From: a virus
Direction: 5' to 3' (one strand)
DNA: 56,964 nucleotides
Virus record (IMG/VR): IMGVR_UViG_3300046507_000328
Coordinates: 1-56,964 of that record
In this document: piece by piece, positions 7,323 through 49,167 of the stretch
Layout of the letters: each line of letters starts with the position of its first letter
Numbering within the stretch: the stretch's first letter is position 1
Program-made: the position numbers and the translations under genes
The notes under the pieces: model-generated
The model's input: the letters and a program-made list of their open reading frames with translations, nothing else
Told to the model about the DNA's origin: nothing
Database searches by the model: none

Positions 7323-7456
7323 GCTTCTGCACCTCCAATGCGATTGAAGATGGCCACTCCAAGGATGTATGTGGCTGTGAGTTTGTCGCCGGTTGCGAAT
7401 GCGATGACCGCAAGAATGAGGCAGACAAGCGCCGCGATGTTCAGCGCCGCCTTCAT
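7319..7456 (-). CDS. 45-aa single-pass membrane peptide
   Basis: Starts at the ATG overlapping the upstream HTH gene's stop (ATGA). One hydrophobic helix (MKAALNIAALVCLILAVIAF) followed by a short amphipathic tail. Supported by the double overlap; function unknown. Confidence 0.55.
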   Translation of the reverse strand: MKAALNIAALVCLILAVIAFATGDKLTATYILGVAIFNRIGGAEA

Positions 7457-7734
7457 GCCGCCACCTGCGCCGACCGCGCCAACGAAACCGGCATCATTCC
7501 CGACGTCGTCGAGCAGCCGCCGTTGTGCGCCGTCATCTTGGTAATGATGTCTGGGTTGTTGTCGTTGTCGGCGACAGGCCGCACACGAGGCAAGCCGGCG
7601 CCGTAGGATCTGTTGAGGCGTTTGTAAATCGCCGCCGGGTTCATATTCCAACGCTCGGCGATTTGGGCAACACTGGCGCCCTCCGCCTTCATCGCGTACA
7701 TATCGGCCGTGGCCGCATCACTTCTGAGCTGCAT
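7453..7734 (-). CDS. Helix-turn-helix protein, first gene of leftward early operon
   Basis: 93 aa from the ATG at 7734, behind AGAGGAGACTTT. Residues 14-42 (MKAEGASVAQIAERWNMNPAAIYKRLNRS) are a classic resolvase/Hin-like HTH. A basic region and an ADNDNN motif follow. It sits directly downstream of the leftward promoter overlapped by the palindromic operator, where a Cro-like or early regulator would lie. Roles as a recombination directionality or replication-initiation factor cannot be excluded. Confidence 0.7.
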   Translation of the reverse strand: MQLRSDAATADMYAMKAEGASVAQIAERWNMNPAAIYKRLNRSYGAGLPRVRPVADNDNNPDIITKMTAHNGGCSTTSGMMPVSLARSAQVAA

Positions 7735-7783
7735 AAAGTCTCCTCTTCTCTTGCGTGGTGGTGGCATCAACGGTTGGCCGCCG

Positions 7784-7828
7784 TTGACAATTGATCTTGA
7801 CACTATTACAATTTGACAAATTTGTCAA
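7784..7828. promoter_or_regulatory. Face-to-face promoters with TTGACAAATTTGTCAA operator (immunity switch)
   Basis: Rightward promoter: TTGACA at 7784-7789, 17-bp spacer, TACAAT at 7807-7812, reading into the repressor at 7871. Leftward promoter: TTGACA (minus) at 7823-7828, 17-bp spacer, TAGTGT at 7800-7805, reading into the early operon. The perfect 16-bp palindrome at 7813-7828 contains the leftward -35 and sits at the start point of the rightward transcript. Binding there would block lytic transcription and autoregulate the repressor. A TTACAATTT half-site (7806-7814) resembling the second repressor's operator overlaps both -10 regions. Confidence 0.8.
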
Positions 7829-7870
7829 GATTTACGTCGCGTCAAGCGCGTCAAGAACGGAATTGATTAC

Positions 7871-8473
7871 ATGTCTCGTTTCTCCGATATGCTAGTTGCA
7901 GAGATAAAACGCCGGGAAATCAGCGAGAGCGTCGCTGCCGCCGAGTTCGGCTGGACGAAGCAAGCCTTCAACACTTGGAAGAACGGCGTGCTGCCGCGCC
8001 AGCAATGGTACGGGCCGCTGTCGCGCTTTCTTAATGTCGAGCTCGACGAGGTCGATTCGCTTATCGAGGAAGCGCGAACCGCTACCGAGCCGCCCGAGCC
8101 AACGGCCGGCCGTGTCACCGATCGCAAGGACGGCCGCTTTCATTTCGACGGAATACCGTCCACCCGCTATGCATTCTCCGTTGACACCCGAGTCATGGAG
8201 CCGGCGCTCGTTCTCGGCGCCAAGGCGTGGGCGCAGCCTGGCGTCTGGCCTCATGTCGGCAATGACGTGGTCGTGCACGCCAAGGGCGGGTCGGCATGGA
8301 TCGGCCAGCTTTCGGCGCTGGATGGCGACACCGCTACGCTTAAGCGGCATGCTGCCGGGTCGACCGGTGGAGAGTTGACTGTGCGAGATGTTCTGGCCGT
8401 GCATGTGATCGTGCTTTCTGAGCGCGTGGCTGGCGCCGCCGCTGTTGTGGGTGGCAATAAAAAAATAACTTGA
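7871..8473 (+). CDS. CI-like repressor with XRE HTH and protease-dead S24-like domain
   Basis: 200 aa. Residues 1-55 form an HTH (ESVAAAEFGWTKQAFNTWKNG). Residues about 85-190 align with LexA/CI S24 domains: an Ala-Gly bond (TAGRVTDRKDGRFHF), then YAFSVDTRVMEPAL where active family members have D-x-x-S-M-x-P. Val replaces the nucleophilic Ser, while a candidate general-base Lys survives (TATLKRH). It should therefore dimerise but not self-cleave. The gene lies beside the palindromic operator and is its most likely ligand. It is transcribed rightward from the promoter at 7784-7812. Confidence 0.8.
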   Translation: MSRFSDMLVAEIKRREISESVAAAEFGWTKQAFNTWKNGVLPRQQWYGPLSRFLNVELDEVDSLIEEARTATEPPEPTAGRVTDRKDGRFHFDGIPSTRYAFSVDTRVMEPALVLGAKAWAQPGVWPHVGNDVVVHAKGGSAWIGQLSALDGDTATLKRHAAGSTGGELTVRDVLAVHVIVLSERVAGAAAVVGGNKKIT

Positions 8474-8485
8474 CAAATTTGACGA
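8470..8485. promoter_or_regulatory. Degenerate operator copy after the repressor gene
   Basis: TTGACAAATTTGACGA overlaps the repressor stop codon. The left half and centre match the TTGACAAATTTGTCAA palindrome but the right half has decayed. It could be a weak operator or stop-type site. Confidence 0.35.
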
Positions 8486-8499
8486 ACCACTGGTAATGG

Positions 8500-8691
8500 T
8501 TAATCGTCGCTGTGGTGGCGATAAGGAAATCCGAGGTTCACGGCCTGGCTAAGCCAAGTCTCCTCCCTCGAGATAGTACGAACTGCATTCCGCAAGCCGC
8601 TAAGCAGGTGGTGCTGGCCTTCGGGTCGGCTTGCGAATGTGGTGTTGCAATTCAAGTTTTGCCCCTGTGGTGGGGGAAGCCGGAACGGCAT
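8500..8691 (-). CDS. Possible 63-aa protein
   Basis: The ATG at 8691 is preceded by AAGGAGAGGAG, and a CACCAC element lies further upstream as for accepted genes of this phage. The product is polar, has no recognisable motif and is rich in Pro/Gln/His. A second GGAGGAGAC lies inside the ORF without a start codon, and a 13-bp direct repeat (8605-8617 and 8738-8750) precedes both SD-like sites. The stretch may be a degraded duplication rather than an active gene. Confidence 0.3.
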   Translation of the reverse strand: MPFRLPPPQGQNLNCNTTFASRPEGQHHLLSGLRNAVRTISREETWLSQAVNLGFPYRHHSDD

Positions 8692-8721
8692 GGGGACTCC
8701 TCTCCTTGCGTAGTACGCCAT

Positions 8722-8767
8722 AAAGGGGGCTGCGTTTCAGGTGGTGCTGGCGCATATGGCCCCCTTT
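8722..8767. terminator. Bidirectional hairpin between convergent transcripts
   Basis: AAAGGGGGC (8722-8730) pairs with GCCCCCTTT (8759-8767); an inner TGCG/CGCA pairing extends the stem and the loop contains a CACCAC element on the minus strand. A second hairpin, GACCATC/GATGGTC (8784-8808), and AGGCTGCAT/ATGCAGCCT (8809-8857) lie next to it at the end of the ParB-like gene. Position and A/T flanks suit termination in both directions. Confidence 0.55.
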
Positions 8768-8855
8768 CTGTTTTGGCAATTTCGACCATCCTGTTTGGCA
8801 AGATGGTCAGGCTGCATTCCCTTTTCGGGCATCCGGTGGATGGTGGCGATGCAGC

Positions 8856-9974
8856 CTATGCGGGGTGGTGAGGCCCGCGTTTTTGTTCCTCATAGATTGT
8901 GATTAGCTCGCCAATGTCCCGACGTGAAAGGCACTCTGCCTTCTGGTCTTTTGTTAGGAACGCGAACCTTCCAAGGAATTCGTCGAACGCTTCTAACGCT
9001 TGAGTTACGGCGGCATCGCCGGCCGCTTTTGCGATCTCAGCTACGGGGGACGATAGAGTTACCGGCGCATCAACGACATGATCATCTCTACCGCGTTCTT
9101 GGTGCGCATCTCCTGCAGCCGCGCTGCTCGAAAAAAAGGCCGCTTCGGCGGCAGCCTCCCCGACCGCCATTACCGATTCTCTGTTTTCGGATAACGTTAA
9201 GTCCATCACGGGAATCGGCGCATGGGGAGCATTGTCGTTAGACGGTATTCTGCGATCTTTATTTGGCGCGCGCTTAGGCTTCCCCGCCTTGGCGCTGACT
9301 TGCTCACCAGCGATGGCGCGCTTGATTAGGTCTTTGCGAGTTTCTGGCTCCAGCTTCGCCAGTGCTTCCAATTCCGTTATGGAATTGAGTGACGTGCCTA
9401 CGAGACGAGGCGCTACGGAGCCGATCGCCTTGCCGGCTGTCGCTGCCCTCTGGATTGTCCTCTCTCCCTTGCCTGTGATTTCGGCAGCTGTTTTGGTGAA
9501 GCGGTCAGGCAGTTCGCCATTGTGGCGATCTGCCACCTTGCCACCCGTGTGCTGATTTCCTCTATCGCCGCCATTCTTCGTCTCGGGAAATTCGACTTCA
9601 TACAGCACCTTCCGGCGTGCCGTGGCGTAAACGAATTCTGCAGGCTCCAGGTCGGTGCGAGCCATATTCTCTTCGATCATGGCAAGTTCAGCCATGTTGT
9701 CACTGAGATACGCGACATTGGCGTCTATGCCCTGCCAGCCAAGTTTCTTCGCCGCTTCAAGGCGATGCCTTCCGGCGACCAGTTCCCACTCTTGCGAAGG
9801 CTGCCCTGACTTGTAGACGGTGAGTGGGCGAACGCGGATAGCTGACTGAAGGCCGTTAATGCCCATGCTCATGACGAGCTTAGCAACACCCTCTTCAGAA
9901 ACGGTACGCTTAATGACGTCGTCCCTGAGGTGGATCTCAGATACCTTGACTATTTGATAACTACCCGCGCTCAT
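8856..9974 (-). CDS. ParB-like protein (Srx/ParB N-terminal domain), copy 1
   Basis: 372 aa. Residues 5-105 form a ParB/Spo0J-type N-terminal domain: IVKVSEIHLRDDVIKR, GLQSAIRVRPLTV and the signature ELVAGRHRLEAAKKLGW (GxHR, about 66-82), then IEENMARTDLEPAEFVYA. The middle (about 140-200) has a helix-rich FTKTAAEITGKGERTIQRAATAG segment resembling the ParB central HTH. The C-terminal half is disordered (SNDNAPHAP) then helical. No ParA is visible. It may be a DNA-binding or nuclease-type ParB rather than a partition protein. Confidence 0.75.
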   Translation of the reverse strand: MSAGSYQIVKVSEIHLRDDVIKRTVSEEGVAKLVMSMGINGLQSAIRVRPLTVYKSGQPSQEWELVAGRHRLEAAKKLGWQGIDANVAYLSDNMAELAMIEENMARTDLEPAEFVYATARRKVLYEVEFPETKNGGDRGNQHTGGKVADRHNGELPDRFTKTAAEITGKGERTIQRAATAGKAIGSVAPRLVGTSLNSITELEALAKLEPETRKDLIKRAIAGEQVSAKAGKPKRAPNKDRRIPSNDNAPHAPIPVMDLTLSENRESVMAVGEAAAEAAFFSSSAAAGDAHQERGRDDHVVDAPVTLSSPVAEIAKAAGDAAVTQALEAFDEFLGRFAFLTKDQKAECLSRRDIGELITIYEEQKRGPHHPA

Positions 9975-9978
9975 CTGC

Positions 9979-11139
9979 TTAACCCTGGAACGTAGTGCCC
10001 GCGATGCGGACGTAATCAGTGTCTACTACGTGGATCTGCGTCAGAGTTTTATTGGAGAGCCACGCGTTCCAGGCCGTGGCGGGGACCGCAATGGACTGGT
10101 GCATATCACCTTTGTTCAGTGCGCGCGTCAGCATATCCATGACGAATGTATGCCGAGGGTCGCCCTTCTTGAGGCCGTCGTTCTTCGCAACCCCTGACCA
10201 AAACTCGATCGCTTCGCGCGGCCTGCCCTTGAGTGTCGCAAGTGCAACAGCAGCCACACCAGCGCCGAGCAGCTTGTTTTTGACCTTACTGTCGCCTCGC
10301 TTCAGGCATTCGTCGAAAAGACGCGCCTCATCTGCATATTTCTCCATGAGGCGCAGACGGGAGTCCACAACGCGCGCCAAGAGCACCTCACCCTCCTCGC
10401 GGGCGCGGCCGGTGCGGAAACCAGAGATGATGAACGGCATAGAATTGTAAACGGCTTTTCCGGTCTGCTTAGTAATGCCATGCTTAGCCGCGTAGCCAAT
10501 GGCGTTGAGGATCTGCGATTCAGTTCGCCCGCGAGAGTTGGTGTTGAATTTGTGGAATGCCTGGAGGAAGGACTCCTCGTCGTCGTAGTGGTCGATCTTG
10601 ATGTTCCAGACGATGGAGCAGCCAGACAACGATTGCGCCCGTAGGCGGTGGTTTCCGTCCATTGCCCACAAGCGGCCGAACAGCACGCCAAAACGAAGTT
10701 GCGTTTCATCCATCCAGGCATCGGGCGTCTGCATCATCGCCACTAGGGTTGCGATGTGCTGTTGAGCGGATTGGTGATCGAGTGGCCGGATAGACTGCTG
10801 GACCGGGTGAACGCAGTTGGTCGTCAGAAACAACGACTGCTCTGGCGTCAGTCGGATATCTCCTGCGCGGAGGAATGACAACGCGGAACTGGGATAACTA
10901 TTCAGCGGTTCGCCGCCGTCACCTGGTGCGACAAGCGCAACAACAGCATGGTCAACCGGCGTGGCTGCCGACCTCACGCTCCGCCGTTGTCTCGCCTCCA
11001 CAACAACAGGCTTAGGCGCATCTTCAAGAATGCGCGGCGATGACGCAACAGGTGATGGCGCTGCCCGCTTTGCGAACAACGCCTCAGCCGCATCCTTTGC
11101 GGTCAGAATATTGCGGGGCTGTCTCTGCATGATGTTCAT
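9979..11139 (-). CDS. ParB-like protein with DGNHR motif, copy 2
   Basis: 386 aa, ATG at 11139 with GAGGAGACTTGA before it. The disordered, basic N-terminus (about 1-90) is followed by a Srx/ParB-like core whose signature is LWAMDGNHRLRAQSLSG, then FNTNSRGRTESQILNAIGYAAKHGI. The C-terminus is a helical domain. Sequence similarity to copy 1 is slight, so these are paralogous folds rather than a recent duplication. It is divergent from the S24 repressor gene and 4 bases upstream of copy 1. Confidence 0.65.
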   Translation of the reverse strand: MNIMQRQPRNILTAKDAAEALFAKRAAPSPVASSPRILEDAPKPVVVEARQRRSVRSAATPVDHAVVALVAPGDGGEPLNSYPSSALSFLRAGDIRLTPEQSLFLTTNCVHPVQQSIRPLDHQSAQQHIATLVAMMQTPDAWMDETQLRFGVLFGRLWAMDGNHRLRAQSLSGCSIVWNIKIDHYDDEESFLQAFHKFNTNSRGRTESQILNAIGYAAKHGITKQTGKAVYNSMPFIISGFRTGRAREEGEVLLARVVDSRLRLMEKYADEARLFDECLKRGDSKVKNKLLGAGVAAVALATLKGRPREAIEFWSGVAKNDGLKKGDPRHTFVMDMLTRALNKGDMHQSIAVPATAWNAWLSNKTLTQIHVVDTDYVRIAGTTFQG

Positions 11140-11529
11140 TCAAGTCTCCTCTTCGGTTTATCTGTGCGGAGCGGTGCTCCTATTAAAAGGAAAGCCGCCT
11201 CAGTGGGCGGCTCTCTTCTTGGGGCTTCATGCCCCGGCGATCTTCTGGGTGGTCCCGCGCCTTTCGGCGCTGCTGCTCTTCTCGGAGGGTTTTCCTTCTG
11301 GGCATGCCGCATTTTTGCACTCCTTAAATTTTGCCTCGAAAAATCGTCAGTCTAAAAATCGTCTGTCTAAAAAAAGCCGCCGTCTTAAATTTGATATTTT
11401 TAGCTAAACGCTTCGGCTTAGCCCTACTTACAATTTCACTACTACCATTTACGTATTTGAGTCGTCAATAAGATTGTTTGTAAATTGTGGAGATAAATGA
11501 TAAGTAGTTGAAAAAATGAGGACAAAACT
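11140..11529. promoter_or_regulatory. Divergent control region: hairpins, operator half-sites, promoter
   Basis: No convincing gene. It holds three hairpins: GGAG/CTCC (11168-11180), AGCCGCC/GGCGGCT (11193-11212) and GGGGC/GCCCC (11221-11235). A tandem repeat follows at 11341-11370, then half-sites TTACAATTT (11428-11436) and AAATTGTGG (11482-11490) resembling the operator at 12265-12297. A candidate rightward promoter is TTGAGT (11457-11462), 17 bp, GTAAAT (11480-11485). The hairpins would lie in the 5' leader of the ParB-like operon. Confidence 0.5.
11341..11370. repeat. Two tandem 15-bp repeats
   Basis: AAATCGTCAGTCTAA followed directly by AAATCGTCTGTCTAA, one mismatch, then AAAAAGCCGCCGTCTTAAAT. 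Tandem iterations upstream of a ParB-like gene pair could be a binding array (parS-like or iteron-like). Confidence 0.55.
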
Positions 11530-12261
11530 ATGAGCCGACTTTCCGATACGTTAACTTCGAAGGCCGAGGAGCTTGGCATCAGCCAGACAGAATTGGCTGA
11601 GCGTACAGGCGTCCTGCAGCAGAGCATCAGCGCGCTATTCAATGGAGATGTCGTGTCGCCGCGCAGGTGGCGTGAGATAGCGCGCGAGCTGCAGATACCT
11701 GAGAGCGATATGCGCGAGATGATGATAGAGGCTGGCCGCGTTGCTGGAAAGACGACGAGGCTCCCGCGGACATTTAAGGTGGAGGACGCATTCCAAGAAG
11801 TGCAGCACCACAAGCAGAATGGGCGCATTGATCTAACGGAAACGCCCGCAGCAACGCGGCCAGCCAAGCTTATCCCAGTGCTCGGCGAGGCTGCCGGCGG
11901 GTCGGATGGCCGCTACTGGTTCAACGGGAATCCGATCGATTATGTCGCATGCCCTCCATCTCTTGATGGCGTGCCGGGGGCATACGCGATTTATGTGGAC
12001 GGCGAATCGATGGCTCCACGCTACCTTCCAGGCGAGGTCGTGTGGGTGCATCCGCATAAGCCGGCTCGTCGAGGCGATGACGTGATCATTCAGATTCGGC
12101 CTAAGGAAGATGGCGAGCCGCCGTATGGCTATATAAAGGAATATGTTGGCTGGTCGGGTAACCTCCTTACTCTTCGACAGCACAATCCAGAATCACAACT
12201 GACATTTGATCGGGATGAAGTTGTAAGCATCCATCCGATCGTTCTTGCCGGGAAGTACTAA
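11530..12261 (+). CDS. LexA/CI-type repressor with XRE HTH and active S24 peptidase domain
   Basis: 243 aa. HTH at about 14-40 (LGISQTELAERTGVLQQSISALFNG). The C-terminal S24 domain has an Ala-Gly cleavage bond (GEAAGGSDGRYWF), the nucleophile in YVDGESMAPRYLPGE, and the Lys partner in YGYIKEYVG. All elements for RecA-stimulated self-cleavage are present, so it should be inactivated on DNA damage. Its HTH residues differ from the other repressor's, implying a different operator. The candidate is the CTACAATTTT/AAAATTGTAG repeat 4 bp downstream on the promoter of the integrase operon. Confidence 0.9.
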   Translation: MSRLSDTLTSKAEELGISQTELAERTGVLQQSISALFNGDVVSPRRWREIARELQIPESDMREMMIEAGRVAGKTTRLPRTFKVEDAFQEVQHHKQNGRIDLTETPAATRPAKLIPVLGEAAGGSDGRYWFNGNPIDYVACPPSLDGVPGAYAIYVDGESMAPRYLPGEVVWVHPHKPARRGDDVIIQIRPKEDGEPPYGYIKEYVGWSGNLLTLRQHNPESQLTFDRDEVVSIHPIVLAGKY

Positions 12262-12264
12262 TTT

Positions 12265-12306
12265 CTACAATTTTCCGTTGACATGGTAAAATTGTAGCCA
12301 TATAAC
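12265..12306 (+). promoter_or_regulatory. Strong sigma-70 promoter with inverted-repeat operator driving the integrase operon
   Basis: TTGACA (12278-12283), 17-bp spacer, TATAAC (12301-12306). The inverted repeat CTACAATTTT (12265-12274) and AAAATTGTAG (12288-12297) brackets the -35 and fills the spacer, so a dimeric repressor bound there would exclude polymerase. The site follows the S24 repressor gene directly. Confidence 0.75.
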
Positions 12307-12368
12307 ACTCCTCAGACGCCCAACCGTGCGTCACCGCCAACGAGGCGGCCACCACTGAGGAGACGACA

Positions 12369-12560
12369 ATGCTCAGAGAGCTTGCTGAAATTGAGGACTA
12401 CATTCCGCTGGCGTGCGCCGCTGGCAGCGCCGAGCCCATGCGCCGCGCAGATTACAAAGCAAAGAAACATCCCCGCCCGCGCAATGTAGATTGCCGCGGT
12501 CGTTTTGCGTTGCGCCACCAGAAGCCGGGCCGCGTGCTGGCAGCGATGGGTGGTGAGTGA
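12369..12560 (+). CDS. Small hypothetical protein
   Basis: 63 aa, first gene after the promoter at 12278, behind the leader hairpin CCGCC/GGCGG, CCACCAC and GAGGAGACGACA. Acidic N-terminus, then a basic Arg/Lys-rich C-terminus (RRADYKAKKHPRPRN). No family recognised. Confidence 0.6.
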   Translation: MLRELAEIEDYIPLACAAGSAEPMRRADYKAKKHPRPRNVDCRGRFALRHQKPGRVLAAMGGE

Positions 12561-14182: not shown

Positions 14183-14520
14183 AGACGGCGGCGAATGATA
14201 ACATTGGACCCAACACACCGCTGCGCCTCGCCCGCGCAGCGGAATTGGCGTTTCCTGATGGATCAATGAGCGAGAAGGGCTTGCGACGGGAATTTAACCG
14301 CGGCAGGCTCGTAGTTGAAAGAATTGCAGGCAAAGATTACACAACATTGTCTGCCATCGAAGAGATGAGAATACTATGCCGGCTCGAAAAGAACCTCCAC
14401 GGCTTTGGCTCCGACCAGCGCGAGGCAAGCGGCGCGCAACGTGGCTCATCGTTTACGAACGAAGGCAGCATAGCACTGGCTGCGGCCAGGGCGACACTGA
14501 GGGCGCGCAGGAAAAGCTAG
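14179..14520 (+). CDS. Putative excisionase-like DNA-binding protein
   Basis: 113 aa, ATGA overlap with the previous gene and a 145-bp overlap with the integrase ORF in another frame. Residues 12-70 (TPLRLARAAELAFPDGSMSEKGLRREFNRGRLVVERIAGKDY) look like a winged-helix excisionase/MerR-type domain, and such genes commonly sit directly before integrases in Rhizobiales elements. It would bend att DNA and favour excision. The last third overlaps int and is probably unconstrained. Confidence 0.65.
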   Translation: MKTAANDNIGPNTPLRLARAAELAFPDGSMSEKGLRREFNRGRLVVERIAGKDYTTLSAIEEMRILCRLEKNLHGFGSDQREASGAQRGSSFTNEGSIALAAARATLRARRKS

Positions 14521-15557
14521 AGGAATTCCTTGCCAAGTTGCGCCGATCCGAGGATGCGCCACGGAGCGTTAATTCCGATAAGGTTTTCATTGCGGACGTG
14601 CTCATTAGGTATCTTGATGCGAAATCACCATCTGTCGCCCGCGTCAAAGAATTGGAATCGCGCATAGACAGATTGACGGAGTGGTGGGGAGCGAAGCCCC
14701 TATCCGCCATAACGCGCTACAACTGCATGGCATATGCTGCCGACCAGAAATCGAAAAGTCTGGCTCGTCGAGAGCTAGAGGATTTGCGCTCCGCCATCAA
14801 CATGGCGATACAAGACGGATACTGCCGCGAGAACGTCAAGGTCACGCTTCCCGAAAAGCCAAAGGCGCGAGATCGGTTCCTGACGCGCCGAGAGGCTGCC
14901 CATCTGCTTTGGACGGCATGGTCGTTCAAGGAAAAGCAGAAAGGCGTCATTACAGACAAGCGCCCGACAAAGCACGTTGCTCGCTTCATCCTGACGGCGC
15001 TGTACACCACCAGCCGCTCCGCTCGCATCTGGCGCGCTTCGTTCAAAAAGATTGAGGGCCATCCGTGGGTAGATCTGAAAAACGGTCTCTTCTTCCGCGA
15101 AGCTCCAGGCGAGAAAGCCGCTGACAACAAGCGCGCTCCGCCCATCCGCCTACCGGATCGACTTCTTGCTCACATGCGAAGGTGGGAAAAGAACGGCGCC
15201 AAGTTCGTTGTCGAGTATCAGGGCCGCCATGCGGATCCAAAGAAAGCATACAAGCATACGGTGGAGCGCGCAGGACTCGACACAAAGGTAGTCCGTCACA
15301 CGCTCCGGCACACTGGCGTCACGTGGCTCATGCAGGCCGCCGTCGATAAGTGGGAAGTTTCCGGCTATGCCGGCATGTCACTGCAGACGATCGAACGCAC
15401 CTACGGGCATCACCATCCTGACCACCAAAAGTCTGTTGGCAACGCCTTCAGCAGCGGTCGTGCTGGCCGTGAACAGCAAGGGAACGGGCCAATCACGGCC
15501 AATCAATCGCGTGAACAAACGGTGTCTAAAGGCACCAAATCAGCGCGAAAAGCATAA
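14376..15557 (+). CDS. int: Tyrosine site-specific integrase
   Basis: 393 aa. The N-terminal PPRLWLRPARGKRRATWLI segment is an arm-binding start seen in related integrases, so the long overlap with xis is real. Core-binding domain about 65-165. The catalytic domain shows Arg in TTSRSARIWR (about 214), His-x-x-Arg in RHTLRHTGV (about 308-311) and the nucleophile Tyr in IERTYGHHH (about 342). The gene ends 20 bp before the tRNA-derived attP core, the usual arrangement for tRNA-targeting integrases. Confidence 0.93.
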   Translation: MPARKEPPRLWLRPARGKRRATWLIVYERRQHSTGCGQGDTEGAQEKLEEFLAKLRRSEDAPRSVNSDKVFIADVLIRYLDAKSPSVARVKELESRIDRLTEWWGAKPLSAITRYNCMAYAADQKSKSLARRELEDLRSAINMAIQDGYCRENVKVTLPEKPKARDRFLTRREAAHLLWTAWSFKEKQKGVITDKRPTKHVARFILTALYTTSRSARIWRASFKKIEGHPWVDLKNGLFFREAPGEKAADNKRAPPIRLPDRLLAHMRRWEKNGAKFVVEYQGRHADPKKAYKHTVERAGLDTKVVRHTLRHTGVTWLMQAAVDKWEVSGYAGMSLQTIERTYGHHHPDHQKSVGNAFSSGRAGREQQGNGPITANQSREQTVSKGTKSARKA

Positions 15558-15737: not shown

Positions 15738-16655
15738 TTACATCAATCGGCGTTCAACGCGGATGGCCGGCTTTGCGCTCTGAACTCGCCTCACGTCTCG
15801 CACTATCTTCGGTGCGCAGCACAGATGCTTTGCAATCTGAGCATCTGTATACGGCCCGGCTTCCAGTAGCATCGTAATCTGCTGCGTCAGCCTGCCGGTT
15901 ACTTCATCGACATGCCGTTCGCGTTGCGCCTCTATGGGTGTCTGGCCGACCACCTTTCCTATCACCATCATCGCCGGTCGCGTCCTGGTCCCGTCTCGGT
16001 GATCGCGCCACGGCCCGTATGCAGACCTGTTGCCAAAGGCGGCTACATCGCGCGCATCCGTCTCGACTACTTCGATGCTGAGTTCGCCGCCCCACAGCAT
16101 CACCACGGCAAGCTCATTGTGAAGGCGGTGTGCGTTTGTATCGATGAAGACTGGCTGACCGTTCACGACCATGGCGCAGAGGTTCTGTACGGGTGGCTGG
16201 ACGCGGTCGGCGATAGCCTCAATGCGGTCGATGCTCTTCTTAAGGCGAATCGCGTCGTCAACCTTTGTGGACGTGCGGCGCTCATGCTCGCGAACGTGGA
16301 TTGGCTTGTCGGAAGTGTAGGCGTCGAATACCTCAACCATCTGTATCGTGACTTCCGTCGCGTTTTCGGTGTCAGACTTCGTGCAGATGTAAAGCGCCTG
16401 CTTCTTGTTGAGATAGTAGGCTTTGCCAGGGCGGCCGCCTCTCTCTGTGGTTTTTTCCACGATGGAAACAACCCTTCCGAAGCGCTCCATCGGCTTTGCG
16501 TGGCGGGATATCAGTTTCCTTATCATGTGGAAGTTTGCAAATCCGAGCGCGCCGGCCAGCGTCAGATCAAGCATACGCGGCTGTCCGTCGATGGTTGAAT
16601 TGAGGTCTGCAATATCGAAGGTATTTCTGCTATTTTCCGTTCTAGCTCTGGTCAT
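15738..16655 (-). CDS. Rha/KilA-like phage regulatory (antirepressor-type) protein
   Basis: 305 aa, ATG at 16655 with AAGG upstream. The N-terminal domain (about 25-115) has FANFHMIRKLISRH...FGRVVSIVEKTTERGGRPGKAYYLNKKQALYI followed by EVTIQMVEVFDAY, the layout of Rha/AntA-type N-terminal domains. The C-terminus carries an HTH-like stretch LEAGPYTDAQIAKHLCCAPKIVRDVRR (about 268-294). Such proteins relieve repression or interfere with host regulation. Its promoter region is shared with the divergent ribbon-helix-helix gene. Confidence 0.6.
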   Translation of the reverse strand: MTRARTENSRNTFDIADLNSTIDGQPRMLDLTLAGALGFANFHMIRKLISRHAKPMERFGRVVSIVEKTTERGGRPGKAYYLNKKQALYICTKSDTENATEVTIQMVEVFDAYTSDKPIHVREHERRTSTKVDDAIRLKKSIDRIEAIADRVQPPVQNLCAMVVNGQPVFIDTNAHRLHNELAVVMLWGGELSIEVVETDARDVAAFGNRSAYGPWRDHRDGTRTRPAMMVIGKVVGQTPIEAQRERHVDEVTGRLTQQITMLLEAGPYTDAQIAKHLCCAPKIVRDVRRVQSAKPAIRVERRLM

Positions 16656-17218: not shown

Positions 17219-17758
17219 CTATGCTGCGTGAGAAATCGAGATTGAGATGTTCTGGTTCGCCGGTTGGAAAAGATTACCTTGCCTGAGTGGCTCATGTCCC
17301 GGAGGGCAATAGAAGCCCATCGAATCCCAGAGAGCATCTGCAAAACGTTCACCCTTCACCCGACAGGCCAGCCTTACGAACTCCATCTCGGCTGAGTCTG
17401 GAACAGATGGCCTTGCTGGCGTGGCCTCTCGTCTCCGAATCTCCGCCTCCATCACATTGAACTGGTTGATGTAGGCGATCTTGAATTTCAGAGCCCTCTC
17501 CCCTGTGAAGCCCATAGCCAGAAGCGTGAAGCCATCCTTGGTGATCTCATAATGGGATGTTGACTGCCCTGTTAAGTCATTGATTTTAAACGGTCGAAAA
17601 TTCGCGACAACGAATTCCGGCTCATAGTCACCAAGATTTCGTATCGCCTCATGGACATGCCGCACTTCCTTGAGGAAGTAAGCAGCGACATCCCGGCTGT
17701 TAGCAACGACGCTTCCGTCCTTTACGGACAGTACGGGCAATCTGATTTGTTCAGTCAT
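17219..17758 (-). CDS. rha: Rha-family phage regulatory protein
   Basis: 179 aa from the ATG at 17758, behind a 10-bp hairpin, CACCAC and AAGAGGAGACTTC. Residues 8-110 match Rha (Phage_pRha): VANSRDVAAYFLKEVRHVHEAIRNL, NFRPFKINDLTGQSTSHYEITKDGFTLLAMGFTGERALKFKI and AYINQFNVMEAEI. Rha proteins interfere with lytic growth in certain host backgrounds and act as DNA-binding regulators. The C-terminal third is variable and contains two Cys. Confidence 0.85.
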   Translation of the reverse strand: MTEQIRLPVLSVKDGSVVANSRDVAAYFLKEVRHVHEAIRNLGDYEPEFVVANFRPFKINDLTGQSTSHYEITKDGFTLLAMGFTGERALKFKIAYINQFNVMEAEIRRREATPARPSVPDSAEMEFVRLACRVKGERFADALWDSMGFYCPPGHEPLRQGNLFQPANQNISISISHAA

Positions 17759-22681: not shown

Positions 22682-22710
22682 ACACTAAATCAATTTGACA
22701 AATTTGTCAA
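22682..22710 (-). promoter_or_regulatory. Promoter with TTGACAAATTTGTCAA operator
   Basis: Minus strand: -35 TTGACA within the perfect palindrome 22695-22710, 17-bp spacer, -10 TAGTGT (22682-22687). The -35, spacer start and -10 are nearly identical to the leftward immunity promoter at 7800-7828, so both operons should respond to the same repressor. Confidence 0.8.
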
Positions 22711-44512: not shown

Positions 44513-46452
44513 TATGCCGCCTTATTGAGTGAAAATTCCGGGTCATCCCAAGGGCTCGCCGCGGGCTTGATGTCGACGAAGCCATCAACCGCCGCCCCTA
44601 TTGCCATCGCGCTAGCGACAGCCGGGTCAATGCGAACGGTCGATTTCTTCTTCGAGAACCACTGGTTGCCCATGAGTGGGTCCGTTTCGATCGCAACACC
44701 CATTAGCGCGCCGAGCAGAACGGGCGAGCGGCGAAGCCTGATCCGCTCTTCAAGGATGAGCGTTTCTAGCGCCGCAACCGAGCCAGGCATCCAAAGACCA
44801 AGCGGAGGCTCGAGGCCGGCGTCTTTTGCCGCCTGCACCTTCTCTTCGTCTGGCTTTGCGCGTTTCTTGCCGCCCTGCGGATGCGCAACGGTCTTGATGT
44901 CGACACCATATTCGTCGAGCTCGGCTTCGAACTTGTCGAACGCATATCGGTCGAACGCCAAAACGCCTATGCCGTGCTCAGTGTTGAGGCGAGCAAACAG
45001 CGCAGCAACATGGTCATAGCGAATGCGCTGGCCTTCAGGTGCGTTGATGTAGCCTTGCTCCAACCACAGACGATATGGAACGTGGTCTTGCTTCGACCGT
45101 TCGTCCATCGTGTCGCGCGGCGTCCAAGCCTCAATCCAAAGATCGTATGTAGGCAAGTCCGCTTCCGTGCCATCCTCGCGCTTTACGCTCTTGGTGCCGG
45201 TCTCCACGGCGAATGCTGCGGCTGTCAAATCCTTTGCGCCGGACAAATCGAGACCGGCCGCGCAGATCTTCTTGCCCTTGTGCTCAACATACGGGTCGAA
45301 GTCGACCATCACCTTCTCAAGGATTGGCCGCGGTATCCAAGCCGTGTCGGCTTCAGTCCAAACGCAGAAGTGCAACCGCAAAATGCCGTTTCGCTTCGAC
45401 GGAATGTCTTTGGCCTGGTTTACAACGCCAGCCAAATAATCGTGCTTCAGCGTCACGCCAAAAAGCGGATTCGCCTTCTGCCAGCATGTCGGATCCGTAA
45501 AAGGATCGTCGTCCTTGTCGAGCGCACACACATACGAAAACGTCGTGTCGTCGACCACCTCACCGACGTAGGTGAAATCGTCATCCGGCGTTTGCGTGCC
45601 GGCCGCCGCCTTGACTGCGTGCTGGTGTTCGTCCCAGCAAATCGAATTCCTATCGCTGCCCGAGTTCGTAATCATGAACAGGAGCGGCTGGCGCCGGAAC
45701 TTAAAGCCGCGCTCGAGCATCTCGATGACCTTGCCATCAGGATGCTCGTGGATTTCGTCGCATAGCGCGATATACGGACGTGGGCCGCTGTGCGCGCCTT
45801 CGCGCGAGATCGGCCGAAAGAAGGACCGCTTCTTGAGGTACGAAAGATTCCAAACCGGGTTGCCACCCGACGGCGTCAGCTTCGACTTGAGCGAAGGCGA
45901 CTGCTCGTACATGGCGACGGCGTCGCGGAACAGAACGAAAGCCTGGTCCTTATTGGCAGCGGCCGCATAGATTTCAGCCGCAGCCTCGCCGTCGGATGTT
46001 AGGCAGTAGTGCCCGATGCCAGCAGCAAGCGGCGACTTGCCGTTGCCTTTGCCTTCCTCGATGTAGGCGCGTCGAAAGCGTCGCAGGATTGCGCCGTCAG
46101 ATTCTACGCGCTTCCATCCGAAGATTGAGCCGATCTTGAACTGCTGCGAGATGTGCGGATTGAACGGCCGCCCTTCGAACTGGCCGCCATTGAGGCGAAG
46201 CACAGCCGGGAAGAACCGCAATACACGACTGGCCGCCTCCGGATCCCAATGGATGCCGCGAGCCGGGCCGTTCTTGCGGTCGTCTTTATGTCGACGGCAC
46301 GCGTTGCGCACATGCGGGCCGGCGACAATCTCGCCTTTGATTACGGCTTCTGCATATTCGTCTACGGGACCAGTCGGATAAGGTGGATTGAAATAGGCCG
46401 GGAGCTCGACGCTAGTCGAAGAACTCGTCGGCCGGATCCTTCTTTTCGCCAT
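44512..46452 (-). CDS. terL: Terminase large subunit
   Basis: 646 aa from MAKRRIRPTS (ATG at 46452, GGAG nine bases upstream), overlapping the small-subunit gene by 41 bp. RAYIEEGKGNGKSPLAAGI is the Walker A region and PYIALCDEIHEH the Walker B/catalytic carboxylate. The nuclease domain has CAAGLDLSGAKDLTAAAF (first Asp), LAFDRYAFDKFEAEL and DPAVASAMAIGAAVDG. It is of the HK97/cos-type Terminase_1 lineage and packages DNA through the portal. Confidence 0.93.
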   Translation of the reverse strand: MAKRRIRPTSSSTSVELPAYFNPPYPTGPVDEYAEAVIKGEIVAGPHVRNACRRHKDDRKNGPARGIHWDPEAASRVLRFFPAVLRLNGGQFEGRPFNPHISQQFKIGSIFGWKRVESDGAILRRFRRAYIEEGKGNGKSPLAAGIGHYCLTSDGEAAAEIYAAAANKDQAFVLFRDAVAMYEQSPSLKSKLTPSGGNPVWNLSYLKKRSFFRPISREGAHSGPRPYIALCDEIHEHPDGKVIEMLERGFKFRRQPLLFMITNSGSDRNSICWDEHQHAVKAAAGTQTPDDDFTYVGEVVDDTTFSYVCALDKDDDPFTDPTCWQKANPLFGVTLKHDYLAGVVNQAKDIPSKRNGILRLHFCVWTEADTAWIPRPILEKVMVDFDPYVEHKGKKICAAGLDLSGAKDLTAAAFAVETGTKSVKREDGTEADLPTYDLWIEAWTPRDTMDERSKQDHVPYRLWLEQGYINAPEGQRIRYDHVAALFARLNTEHGIGVLAFDRYAFDKFEAELDEYGVDIKTVAHPQGGKKRAKPDEEKVQAAKDAGLEPPLGLWMPGSVAALETLILEERIRLRRSPVLLGALMGVAIETDPLMGNQWFSKKKSTVRIDPAVASAMAIGAAVDGFVDIKPAASPWDDPEFSLNKAA

Positions 46453-46795
46453 CCGGTTTAGCTCCAGCCTTGCTGGCATCAGCCGGCGTCGCGCCCATTT
46501 GCCCGTAGCACTGGCGCAGAAGGTTCATGGCTTGCACGCCAACGTCTTCGCCCTTCATCATCCGGCCGCGTATGTTCGCGGCGATCGCCAGGTGCCCTCG
46601 GTGGCTCCAGTTGAGCCAAGGCACTTCAGATGCAATTTCGCGCCATGCCTGTTGCGCGTGTTCATTCAGCCATTCGAAAGGCTCGCCGACGCTCTCGTCG
46701 ACGGCTGGTTCGTTGCGGCTTTCAAATTTGGTTTTTTGCTTGTCGGCGTAGCCGGTAATTTCGGCTTTGGCCTTTGGCGTTCTCGGCCTAGCCAT
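46412..46795 (-). CDS. terS: Terminase small subunit
   Basis: 127 aa. FEWLNEHAQQAWREIASEVPWLNWSHRGHLAIAANIRGRMMKGEDVGVQAMNLLRQCYGQMGATPADASK resembles P27-type small terminases. The acidic C-terminus (KKDPADEFFD) overlaps terL. It would recognise the cos region immediately upstream. Confidence 0.8.
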   Translation of the reverse strand: MARPRTPKAKAEITGYADKQKTKFESRNEPAVDESVGEPFEWLNEHAQQAWREIASEVPWLNWSHRGHLAIAANIRGRMMKGEDVGVQAMNLLRQCYGQMGATPADASKAGAKPDGEKKDPADEFFD

Positions 46796-46813: not shown

Positions 46814-46829
46814 TTGACAAAATTGTCAA
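46814..46829. promoter_or_regulatory. Operator-like palindrome ahead of terS
   Basis: TTGACAAAATTGTCAA differs from the main operator only at its centre. A leftward -10 is poor (ATGGAA at 17 bp), whereas the rightward direction has TAGAGT at 16 bp, so the promoter polarity is uncertain. Confidence 0.6.
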
Positions 46830-47733: not shown

Positions 47734-48684
47734 TCACGCGGCACGACTGCGAAAGCGCGACAATGCGATGGACTCCAAAAGCTTTTCGCGCTTATCGATC
47801 TCTTGCCATTTTACAGATATGCTGCCTATAGCCATTCCAACAAGAATGCGCCCGCCAACTGCCGGCTGCGTTTTCTCGCCTTTTTGCCGGCCAATCTCAG
47901 TGTATGATTTACCGCCAAGCACGGCGTCTTCAAAAGGCTCGACCAGTGGGCCAAGCGATGACCGTAGCTCTGCAAGAATAGGTTTTGCATCAACGTGCGC
48001 ATTGAGCACTTCGTCTGTCAGCTTTACATGCAGGCTTTCCGTCTTGACGACGCTGCCAGCGGCTATGTTGTCGTTATCGGCAACGACGGTTCTTCGGGCG
48101 GGCGTAGCGTGAGCGCCCTTGCTCTTTTTAATCTTGGACGATTGTTTGATTTCGCCATCGGGGATTTCTTTCCAACCGCTGGCTGCTGCAGCGTCAATAT
48201 CGGCCTCTGGCGTCAATCGCTTGCTAACGCGAACAACCTCGCCGCCGTCAGACTTGCTGTAGTCCAGGCCCTTGAGTGGCTCGGCTTCGCATAGGGCGAC
48301 AAGCTTGCGATAACGCAGAACAACGGCAACAGCATCGTTCTTCTCGTCACGACGCAGCGCCTCAAGCAGAGGGAAATCCTCGCTGCGGCTCTGCACAACC
48401 GACGGATCACCGATAGACTGGCGCTTTGCTATTACCTTGATCATCTTGCCCATGGCGCGCTTCTCCTCCTTGGCCTTCTTTGCAGCGGCCACACGTCCTG
48501 CTGCTCGATCCTCCGGTGTCGATTGGCGGCGAGGCGTGCGGATGTATGGCGTGTCGGCAATAGGCTCCCATTTGCCATCGACTTTGTGAAAGCGGGTCTT
48601 GGTTCGGTATGGGTGCGGCTGGTCGCCGGTGTACGCTACTCGGCCTGTTGCATCCAAAACGTCATCGTCATCGCTATCGGCCAT
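47734..48684 (-). CDS. Hypothetical protein with possible C-terminal HTH
   Basis: 316 aa. The start at 48684 has AAGGGG six bases upstream; 48690 is in frame but too close to it. Acidic N-terminus (MADSDDDDVLDATG), a basic helix AAGRVAAAKKAKEEKRAMGKMIKVI and a C-terminal stretch PFEDAVLGGKSYTEIGRQKGEKTQPAVGGRILVGMAIGSI that looks like an HTH. It has its own operator-controlled promoter at 48728-48756, so it may be a regulator of the neighbouring late genes. No family recognised. Confidence 0.6.
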   Translation of the reverse strand: MADSDDDDVLDATGRVAYTGDQPHPYRTKTRFHKVDGKWEPIADTPYIRTPRRQSTPEDRAAGRVAAAKKAKEEKRAMGKMIKVIAKRQSIGDPSVVQSRSEDFPLLEALRRDEKNDAVAVVLRYRKLVALCEAEPLKGLDYSKSDGGEVVRVSKRLTPEADIDAAAASGWKEIPDGEIKQSSKIKKSKGAHATPARRTVVADNDNIAAGSVVKTESLHVKLTDEVLNAHVDAKPILAELRSSLGPLVEPFEDAVLGGKSYTEIGRQKGEKTQPAVGGRILVGMAIGSISVKWQEIDKREKLLESIALSRFRSRAA

Positions 48685-48727
48685 TTTCATCCCCTTAAAT
48701 CGTCGTGGTGCTATTGCGGTAGGTGTA

Positions 48728-48756
48728 GTTATATGATAATTTGACAAATTTGTCAA
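48728..48756 (-). promoter_or_regulatory. Promoter with perfect TTGACAAATTTGTCAA operator
   Basis: Minus strand: -35 TTGACA inside the palindrome 48741-48756, 17-bp spacer, -10 TATAAC (48728-48733). The best -10 of the operator-linked promoters; it reads into the 47734-48684 gene. Confidence 0.82.
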
Positions 48757-49105: not shown

Positions 49106-49167
49106 GTTCTAAGCCGACTCGACAAATTTGTCAACATGGACGAAATGAAAAACTACAAATTTGTCAA
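49106..49167 (-). promoter_or_regulatory. Promoter with two spaced operator copies
   Basis: Site 1 TCGACAAATTTGTCAA (49119-49134) contains the leftward -35 TTGACA with TAGAAC (49106-49111) 17 bp away. Site 2 ACTACAAATTTGTCAA (49152-49167) is 33 bp upstream, about three helical turns. The pair would allow cooperative binding of two dimers on the same face of the DNA. Confidence 0.75.

Follow-up and report, generated by a model that had tools for sequence, protein, structure and literature searches.

A candidate antisense RNA behind a protease-dead repressor in a relative of Rhizobium phage 16-3

The control region of the phage studied here raises the question of what a temperate phage does with two S24-type repressors when one of them has lost its protease active site. 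The region lies in IMG/VR record IMGVR_UViG_3300046507_000328, of which positions 1 to 56,964 (56,964 nucleotides (nt), hereafter the window) were analysed, and it contains the genes for the repressors P0001 and P0002. The window belongs to a virus of root-nodule-type bacteria and is a relative of Rhizobium phage 16-3, a phage under study since the 1960s (work that has included its C repressor and immX). Among the annotated phages searched, both repressors are matched in 16-3, AP-16-3, NV1.1.1, RHph_TM3_3_14B, and RHph_X2_25. Our answer, which we consider probable, is that the phage is temperate and 16-3-like, and that its two repressors are joined in this control region by a third layer of regulation, in which an RNA encoded behind P0001 acts as an antisense repressor of genes that share a standard leader. 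This conserved RNA and the matching leader, which were absent from the earlier note on this DNA, proved to be the most informative feature. The features of the window are collected in Table 1.

Directly after the stop codon and operator of each gene of the P0001 family (the p070 type, after its 16-3 member) lies a conserved non-coding region of approximately 140 nt, the operator being the -35 element of its putative promoter. For 35 aligned sequences, RNAalifold gave a structure of 23 base pairs, 19 of which show changes on both sides. With this structure fixed, 94.5% of the cells in the alignment are paired, compared with 76.6% in shuffles, and there are 137 double-change cells, compared with 35.8; none of 500 shuffles reached the alignment on any of five measures, and shifting the partner by 1-3 columns abolishes the pairing signal. 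The RNA is assigned to the + strand because standard pairs are more frequent there than on the complement (94% vs. 82%) and G-U cells far exceed A-C cells (118 vs. 16). Its parts are a hairpin with a UGUGGUG loop, a nearly invariant, sarcin-ricin-like internal loop ([CG]GAA / AGUA[GC]), GUCUCCUCC within the domain that this internal loop closes, and a branched hairpin that contains GUGGUG and in many cases has a UUCG or GAAA tetraloop. The possibility that the region is a gene was rejected: each frame is open in 14 of the 35 sequences at most, and the sequence lengths are spread evenly modulo 3. Rfam searches gave no match at the gathering score for the RNA from 14 sources and none that was relevant at E values up to 5 for the window region, and by its Rfam model the RNA does not belong to the C4 antisense RNA family.

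Two stretches of this RNA, GUCUCCUC and GUGGUG, are complementary, in the right order, to the two halves of a leader of the form CACCAC...GAGGAGAC...ATG. Twelve genes of the window start after ACCAC-(0-18)-GAGGAG-(3-8)-ATG, mostly CACCACAAGAGGAGAC, a pattern matched at most once in shuffles, and the leader is found on 11 of the 25 Shine-Dalgarno starts before 23 kb vs. 1 of the 21 beyond (p 0.003). Phage 16-3 likewise has 12 leader starts, 10 of them at annotated gene starts (p046, p072, p077, p079, p086, p089, p096, p103, p106, and p061). When 2.9 million viral contigs of IMG/VR were searched, the exact leader was found in only 31; 14 of these were already known to have the RNA, and so do 8 of the other 17 (two of them weakly). 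In G796 and G792, both large contigs with the leader, the RNA was looked for and not found, and the leader contig G798 has a related, permuted RNA, as judged by eye. One could suppose that the leader is shared merely because a good ribosome-binding site was copied among genes, the match to the RNA being coincidental, and GAGGAG is indeed a standard Shine-Dalgarno sequence; however, the rarity of exact leaders, the presence of the RNA in 22 of the 31 contigs, and the complete absence of leaders from four control phages (rhizobial or related, with C-type repressors and without the RNA) make this very improbable.

Further evidence for contact between RNA and leader comes from distant members of the RNA family, which were taken together with their surroundings. 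In L099 the RNA reads CGUCUCUCC and the leaders GGAGAGACG, with 5 of 12 own leaders vs. 1 of 372 others agreeing (p 7e-8). In L106 and L107 the RNA reads CUCCUCGUGUGG and the leaders CCACACGAGGAG, agreement being found for 6 of 13 own leaders in the former and 6 of 17 in the latter (p 6e-8 and 4e-7), as compared with 4 of 384 others. In L097, with UUGUAGCUCCUC in the RNA and GAGGAGCUACAA in the leaders, the match is 12 nt long and the counts are 2 of 16 own leaders vs. 1 of 368 others (p 0.005). Complementarity to the ribosome-binding site thus appears to be kept by two-sided changes in L097, L099, and L106/L107, as one would look for in a phage antisense RNA, and we regard pairing between RNA and leader as likely, though not proven.

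These changes also bear on the alternative that the RNA is a structured protein- or ribosome-binding element, not an antisense RNA, whose CUCCUCC merely copies the anti-Shine-Dalgarno sequence. Its AGUA/GAA loop does resemble the sarcin-ricin loop (loop E), typically a protein-binding or tertiary element, and CUCCUCC resembles the 16S tail. Nevertheless, the complementarity reaches leader-specific bases beyond GAGGAG (AC and CACCAC), and the pairs UUGUAGCUCCUC / GAGGAGCUACAA and CGUCUCUCC / GGAGAGACG change on both sides, so we find this alternative unlikely.

Several observations weigh against an antisense role under the control of P0001. The variants above were picked after inspection, and whereas 4 of the 8 altered RNA elements find their best fit, or close to it, in their own leaders, the other 4 (L098, L051, L059, and 16-3) do not, those of L098, L051, and L059 having no match to their own leaders. 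Simple duplex energies fail to separate leader genes from others, because GAGGAG is a generic Shine-Dalgarno sequence too, and duplex energy was dropped as a target finder. The -10 element of the RNA is weak. Lastly, some RNA loci have no p070-type gene, so the RNA and the repressor are separable.

When a covariance model was applied, 14 relatives proved to have one copy of the RNA each. Additional members were detected in two samples of genomes: 15 of the 394 from Rhizobiaceae and 3 of the 397 from the order, with two belonging to both counts. A locus retrieved solely through its C repressor, L011, also carries a p070-type gene and the RNA. The window has a second, diverged copy in tandem, whose element is GGGACUCCUCUCC; this copy is nearer to the single copy of L098 than to copy 1, and it may have other targets. 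The RNA members in L100-L103 and L105-L107 are without a p070-type gene, lie beside a divergent gene start with the leader ACACGAGGAG or ACGAGGA, and apparently represent a separate phage group. Related RNAs of permuted order, with GUCUCCUC before both GUGGUG loops, are found in L149, L150, and L156 (7070-7160), in phages with leaders and without the p070 operator. As for the leaders themselves, many (e.g., those at 214, 2594, 3051, and 20607) have a small hairpin with a CACCA loop (e.g., GCCGGTCACCAGCCGGC) upstream of CACCAC, a possible second contact for a GUGGUG loop.

The repressor in front of the RNA was described in the earlier note as protease-dead, and P0002 as catalytically complete, a contrast borne out by the alignment. 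Where P0002 has DGESMAPRY, P0001 has DTRVMEPAL, with Val replacing the nucleophile Ser; the family alignment puts Gly at the position of the catalytic Lys, and the Lys in TLKRH of P0001 is neither at that position nor conserved. No Pfam family (HTH_3 and Peptidase_S24 included) reaches its cut-off for P0001, and no PHROG family matches it. A Foldseek search of the PDB with an AlphaFold model made from 35 relatives (predicted local distance difference test score (pLDDT) 86.9; predicted template modelling score (pTM) 0.56) gave its best matches to LexA (3k2z) and lambda CI (3bdn), which points to a helix-turn-helix (HTH) domain followed by a LexA-like C-terminal fold, and P0001 aligns with P0002 at 33% over the C-terminal domain. 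The sole match of P0001 in 16-3 is p070 (43% identical), to which the 16-3 annotation assigns no function. A relationship to immX (pXu/pXl) was considered and rejected: immX is located at 18.3-18.7 kb of 16-3 and p070 at 37.1-37.7 kb, and only p070 is matched. Viral contigs and genomes of Rhizobiaceae contributed some 40 additional loci to the family, and all p070-type members examined (~37) have Val, Ile, or Leu at the Ser position, Gly or no conserved Lys at the Lys position, and no Ala-Gly. The loss of the active site is therefore old and fixed, and not a defect of a single prophage. Judged by its sequence, P0001 lacks the Ser-Lys dyad expected of a RecA-cleavable S24 repressor. In comparison with LexA and lambda CI, the P0001 family shares the HTH and the S24 fold but is without the nucleophile, the Lys, and the cleavage dipeptide.

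P0001 also appears to have operators of its own. Both repressor reading frames and both inverted repeats reported in the earlier note (TTGACAAATTTGTCAA beside P0001, CTACAATTTT / AAAATTGTAG behind P0002) are where it had placed them, and its proposal that the two repressors use different operators seems broadly right, in that the putative sites form separate sets. Allowing up to 3 mismatches, TTGACAAATTTGTCAA has 7 sites in the window (Table 1); with up to 2 mismatches, there are 6 in the window and 8 in 16-3, where 0.0 would be expected (none arose in simulated sequences of the same dinucleotide make-up), and none in the four control phages. The operator is found upstream of the p070-type gene in 35 of 36 loci and after its stop codon in every family member (30 of 36 by the strict pattern). 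In the window, its sites precede the leftward early operon, the RNA, a gene for the terminase small subunit, and three further genes, which is consistent with the further proposal that the dead repressor sits on several lytic operons. Moreover, in 16-3 a p070 operator and a leader are both found next to the starts of p061, p072, p089, p104, and p106, which may place these genes under double control. A promoter and terminator scan of 7700-8900 gave a single promoter match, that of P0001, and no usable terminator. A half-site in the first switch, TTACAATTT, had been taken as a possible link between the two circuits; the sequence is real, but its TACAAT is more simply read as the -10 of the best promoter match of P0001. 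Both operator types do contain ACAA/TTGT half-sites, and some cross-talk would be possible.

Unlike an immunity determinant, the p070 operator hardly varies among phages that have different C operators, and immunity of 16-3 has reportedly been mapped to c and immX, not to p070. These points would suit a Cro-like regulator of the lytic stage, with C alone keeping lysogeny. Perfect palindromes on distant late and regulatory promoters, in contrast, are what a prophage-silencing repressor would be expected to have, and a Cro-like role for P0001 seems to us possible but somewhat doubtful.

P0002 matches the C repressor of 16-3 over its full length (54% identity over 243 amino acids) and exceeds the Pfam cut-offs for HTH_3 and Peptidase_S24, which by homology would make it a C repressor of the 16-3 type. 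In the 16-3 annotation (DQ500118), c is preceded by OR1/OR2 together with Pr and Pc, and its stop codon is closely followed by OL1/OL2 and PL, which leads to xis and int. The window is similar in that the putative OL follows the stop codon on the int/xis promoter and the putative OR stands on the divergent operon, and the earlier note's placement of the C-type repressor on the promoters of the int operon and the ParB-like pair agrees with the OL/PL and OR/PR mapped in 16-3. At PL, the window retains TTGACA-N17-TATAAC and, of each site in 16-3, the outer half, the operator halves being only partly kept (ACAATTTT / AAAATTGT). The operator types around the -35 of PL (ACAATTTT, CTATAGG, ATTGATT, and others) differ from phage to phage; among close relatives, C-type operators at the equivalent of 12265-12306 diverge widely while the flanking PL promoter is kept, as expected for diverging immunity groups. 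The window also differs from 16-3 in its ParB-like pair in the PR operon (8856-11139), which is absent at the same place in 16-3 and RHph_TM3_3_14B; L094 has a similar one.

The Ser (in DGESMAPRY) and Lys (in GYIKEY) of P0002 are kept without exception in about 40 C-type homologues, whereas the Ala-Gly of P0002 (in GEAAGG) is found only in the window, L011, and L032 (3 of ~40), most others having Val-Gly (16-3 C included) and some Lys-Gly. P0002 thus combines the Ser-Lys dyad with one of the pairs, Ala-Gly or Cys-Gly, expected of a RecA-cleavable S24 repressor, and SOS cleavage is plausible for the window. Because Ala-Gly is confined to 3 of ~40 relatives, with Val-Gly or Lys-Gly elsewhere, RecA-driven cleavage is not a trait of the C-type family and is not to be assumed for the group. 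The model of the earlier note, in which SOS cleavage of P0002 releases int and the ParB-like pair, an antirepressor removes P0001, and the RNA is incidental, is in keeping with the Ser, Lys, and Ala-Gly of P0002 and the dead site of P0001. One of the two Rha-like genes that it named as antirepressors, at 17219-17758, matches anti-repressor PHROGs; the other, at 15738-16655, has a Rha match below threshold. As a complete account the model is nevertheless improbable, given the replacement of Ala-Gly in nearly all relatives, and the RNA is not incidental, because it lies behind every P0001-type gene found and is under strong structural selection.

For the reading that we prefer, with an RNA layer added to two repressors, the following mechanism is proposed. 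P0002, its catalytic dyad intact, would act as the C-type immunity repressor at the PR position, on the ParB-like operon, and at the PL position, on the int operon. P0001 would bind TTGACAAATTTGTCAA at the promoters of its own gene, of the leftward early operon, and of the RNA, and at several distant promoters (terS and others), as a global lytic-gene repressor that RecA could not remove by cleavage. During lysogeny, PR and PL would be repressed by C, and the promoters of the early genes, the late genes, and the RNA by P0001. Should P0001 fall, early genes and RNA would appear together. The RNA, with its two GUGGUG-loop hairpins and the domain presenting GUCUCCUC, would then pair with CACCAC...GAGGAGAC...ATG, mask the Shine-Dalgarno sequence of about a dozen genes, and jointly repress their translation, probably as a brake on early genes. 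Loss of C would in turn release transcription from PR, and unless it is halted on the way, this transcription would cross the RNA and P0001 of the window in the antisense direction; the two circuits could thereby be coupled without cleavage of P0001. Elsewhere in the window, a phage-encoded sliding clamp (DnaN) and an RNA ligase are found at 2594 and 5854 (- strand), the clamp gene starting with the leader.

Table 1. Positions of genes, putative regulatory sites, and RNA copies in the window.
Feature	Position	Strand	Basis
First gene of leftward early operon (HTH, Cro position), start with RNA-complementary leader	7453-7734	-	
Putative P0001 promoter TTGACA-N17-TACAAT	7784-7812	+	11 of 12 consensus bases
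Putative P0001-type operator TTGACAAATTTGTCAA, between P0001 and leftward early operon	7813-7828		0 mismatches
P0001, p070-type repressor: HTH and protease-dead S24/LexA-like domain (predicted)	7871-8473	+	Sequence, family alignment, AlphaFold/Foldseek
Putative P0001-type operator TTGACAAATTTGacgA, doubling as -35 of RNA promoter	8470-8485	+	
Structured RNA copy 1: GUGGUG loops, GUCUCCUC element, AGUA/GAA internal loop	8503-8643	+	Covariance model 133.7 bits, E 1e-33
Structured RNA, diverged tandem copy 2	8658-8777	+	Covariance model 38.5 bits, E 3e-8
ParB-like protein, PR-equivalent operon, convergent with P0001 and RNA	8856-9974	-	
Second protein of ParB-like operon, leader GAGGAGACTTG	9979-11139	-	11-nt match of leader to RNA
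Putative OR-equivalent region, gap between P0002 and ParB-like operon	11425-11500		Alignment to 16-3 OR1/OR2
P0002, C repressor homologue with Ser, Lys, and Ala-Gly	11530-12261	+	Homology, Pfam
Putative OL equivalent CTACAATTTT...AAAATTGTAG around TTGACA-N17-TATAAC, PL promoter of int operon	12265-12306		Position and sequence match to 16-3 OL1/OL2/PL
Leader of first PL-operon gene (ACCACTGAGGAGACGACAATG)	12351-12371	+	
Tyrosine integrase	14376-15557	+	Sub-threshold Pfam match
Weak Rha-like protein	15738-16655	-	Below Pfam cut-off
Rha-like regulator / anti-repressor family, start with leader (CACCACAAGAGGAGACTTCATG)	17219-17758	-	PHROG match
Putative P0001-type operator, upstream of leader-bearing gene starting 22633 (-)	22695-22710		
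Putative P0001-type operator, ~20 nt before terminase small subunit gene (46412-46795, -)	46814-46829		
Putative P0001-type operator, upstream of gene 47734-48687 (-)	48741-48756		
Two putative P0001-type operators (49119, 49152), upstream of leader-bearing gene starting 49068 (-)	49119-49167		

Similar to the proposed RNA, the c4 antisense RNA of P1/P7 and the sar RNA of P22 block a ribosome-binding site through complementary stretches, which in c4 lie in loops (PMC12197685). One candidate target in the window is also a gene of the Rha/anti-repressor family, and the leader at 17758 resembles, by analogy, the c4/sar logic. In contrast to the single ant mRNA of those systems, there are about a dozen leader-tagged candidate targets here; the fold is different, and the RNA lies behind a non-cleavable repressor whose putative operator is the -35 of the RNA. 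The RegA protein of T4, a single phage protein, represses translation of about 30 mRNAs at the initiation region (PMC3014915). As with RegA, one phage factor would serve many early genes, but here the factor would be an RNA and the target a defined leader. Phage 16-3 itself has the P0001 homologue p070, the same operator, and the same RNA behind the gene. We found no publication on p070 or its RNA in the literature that we reached, which comprised later papers on 16-3 relatives (e.g., PMC10460002).

With somewhat less confidence than we place in the reading of this region, we favour the view that in 16-3-like phages generally a standard leader tags a dozen or more of the phage's own genes, and that all of them are controlled by a single antisense RNA dedicated to this task, the counterpart in RNA of T4 RegA. 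This RNA would itself be under a conserved repressor with a dead protease site, which would also act on several of these genes. If true, a regulatory layer has been missed in 16-3, made up of a repressor beyond the reach of RecA-driven cleavage and an RNA acting on about twelve genes, and these phages would encode an RNA whose targets, marked by a common tag, are genes of the phage itself throughout the genome. Because RNA and leader co-vary in trans, their pairing can be tested directly, and the leader and RNA pair would be an orthogonal translational switch for alphaproteobacteria.

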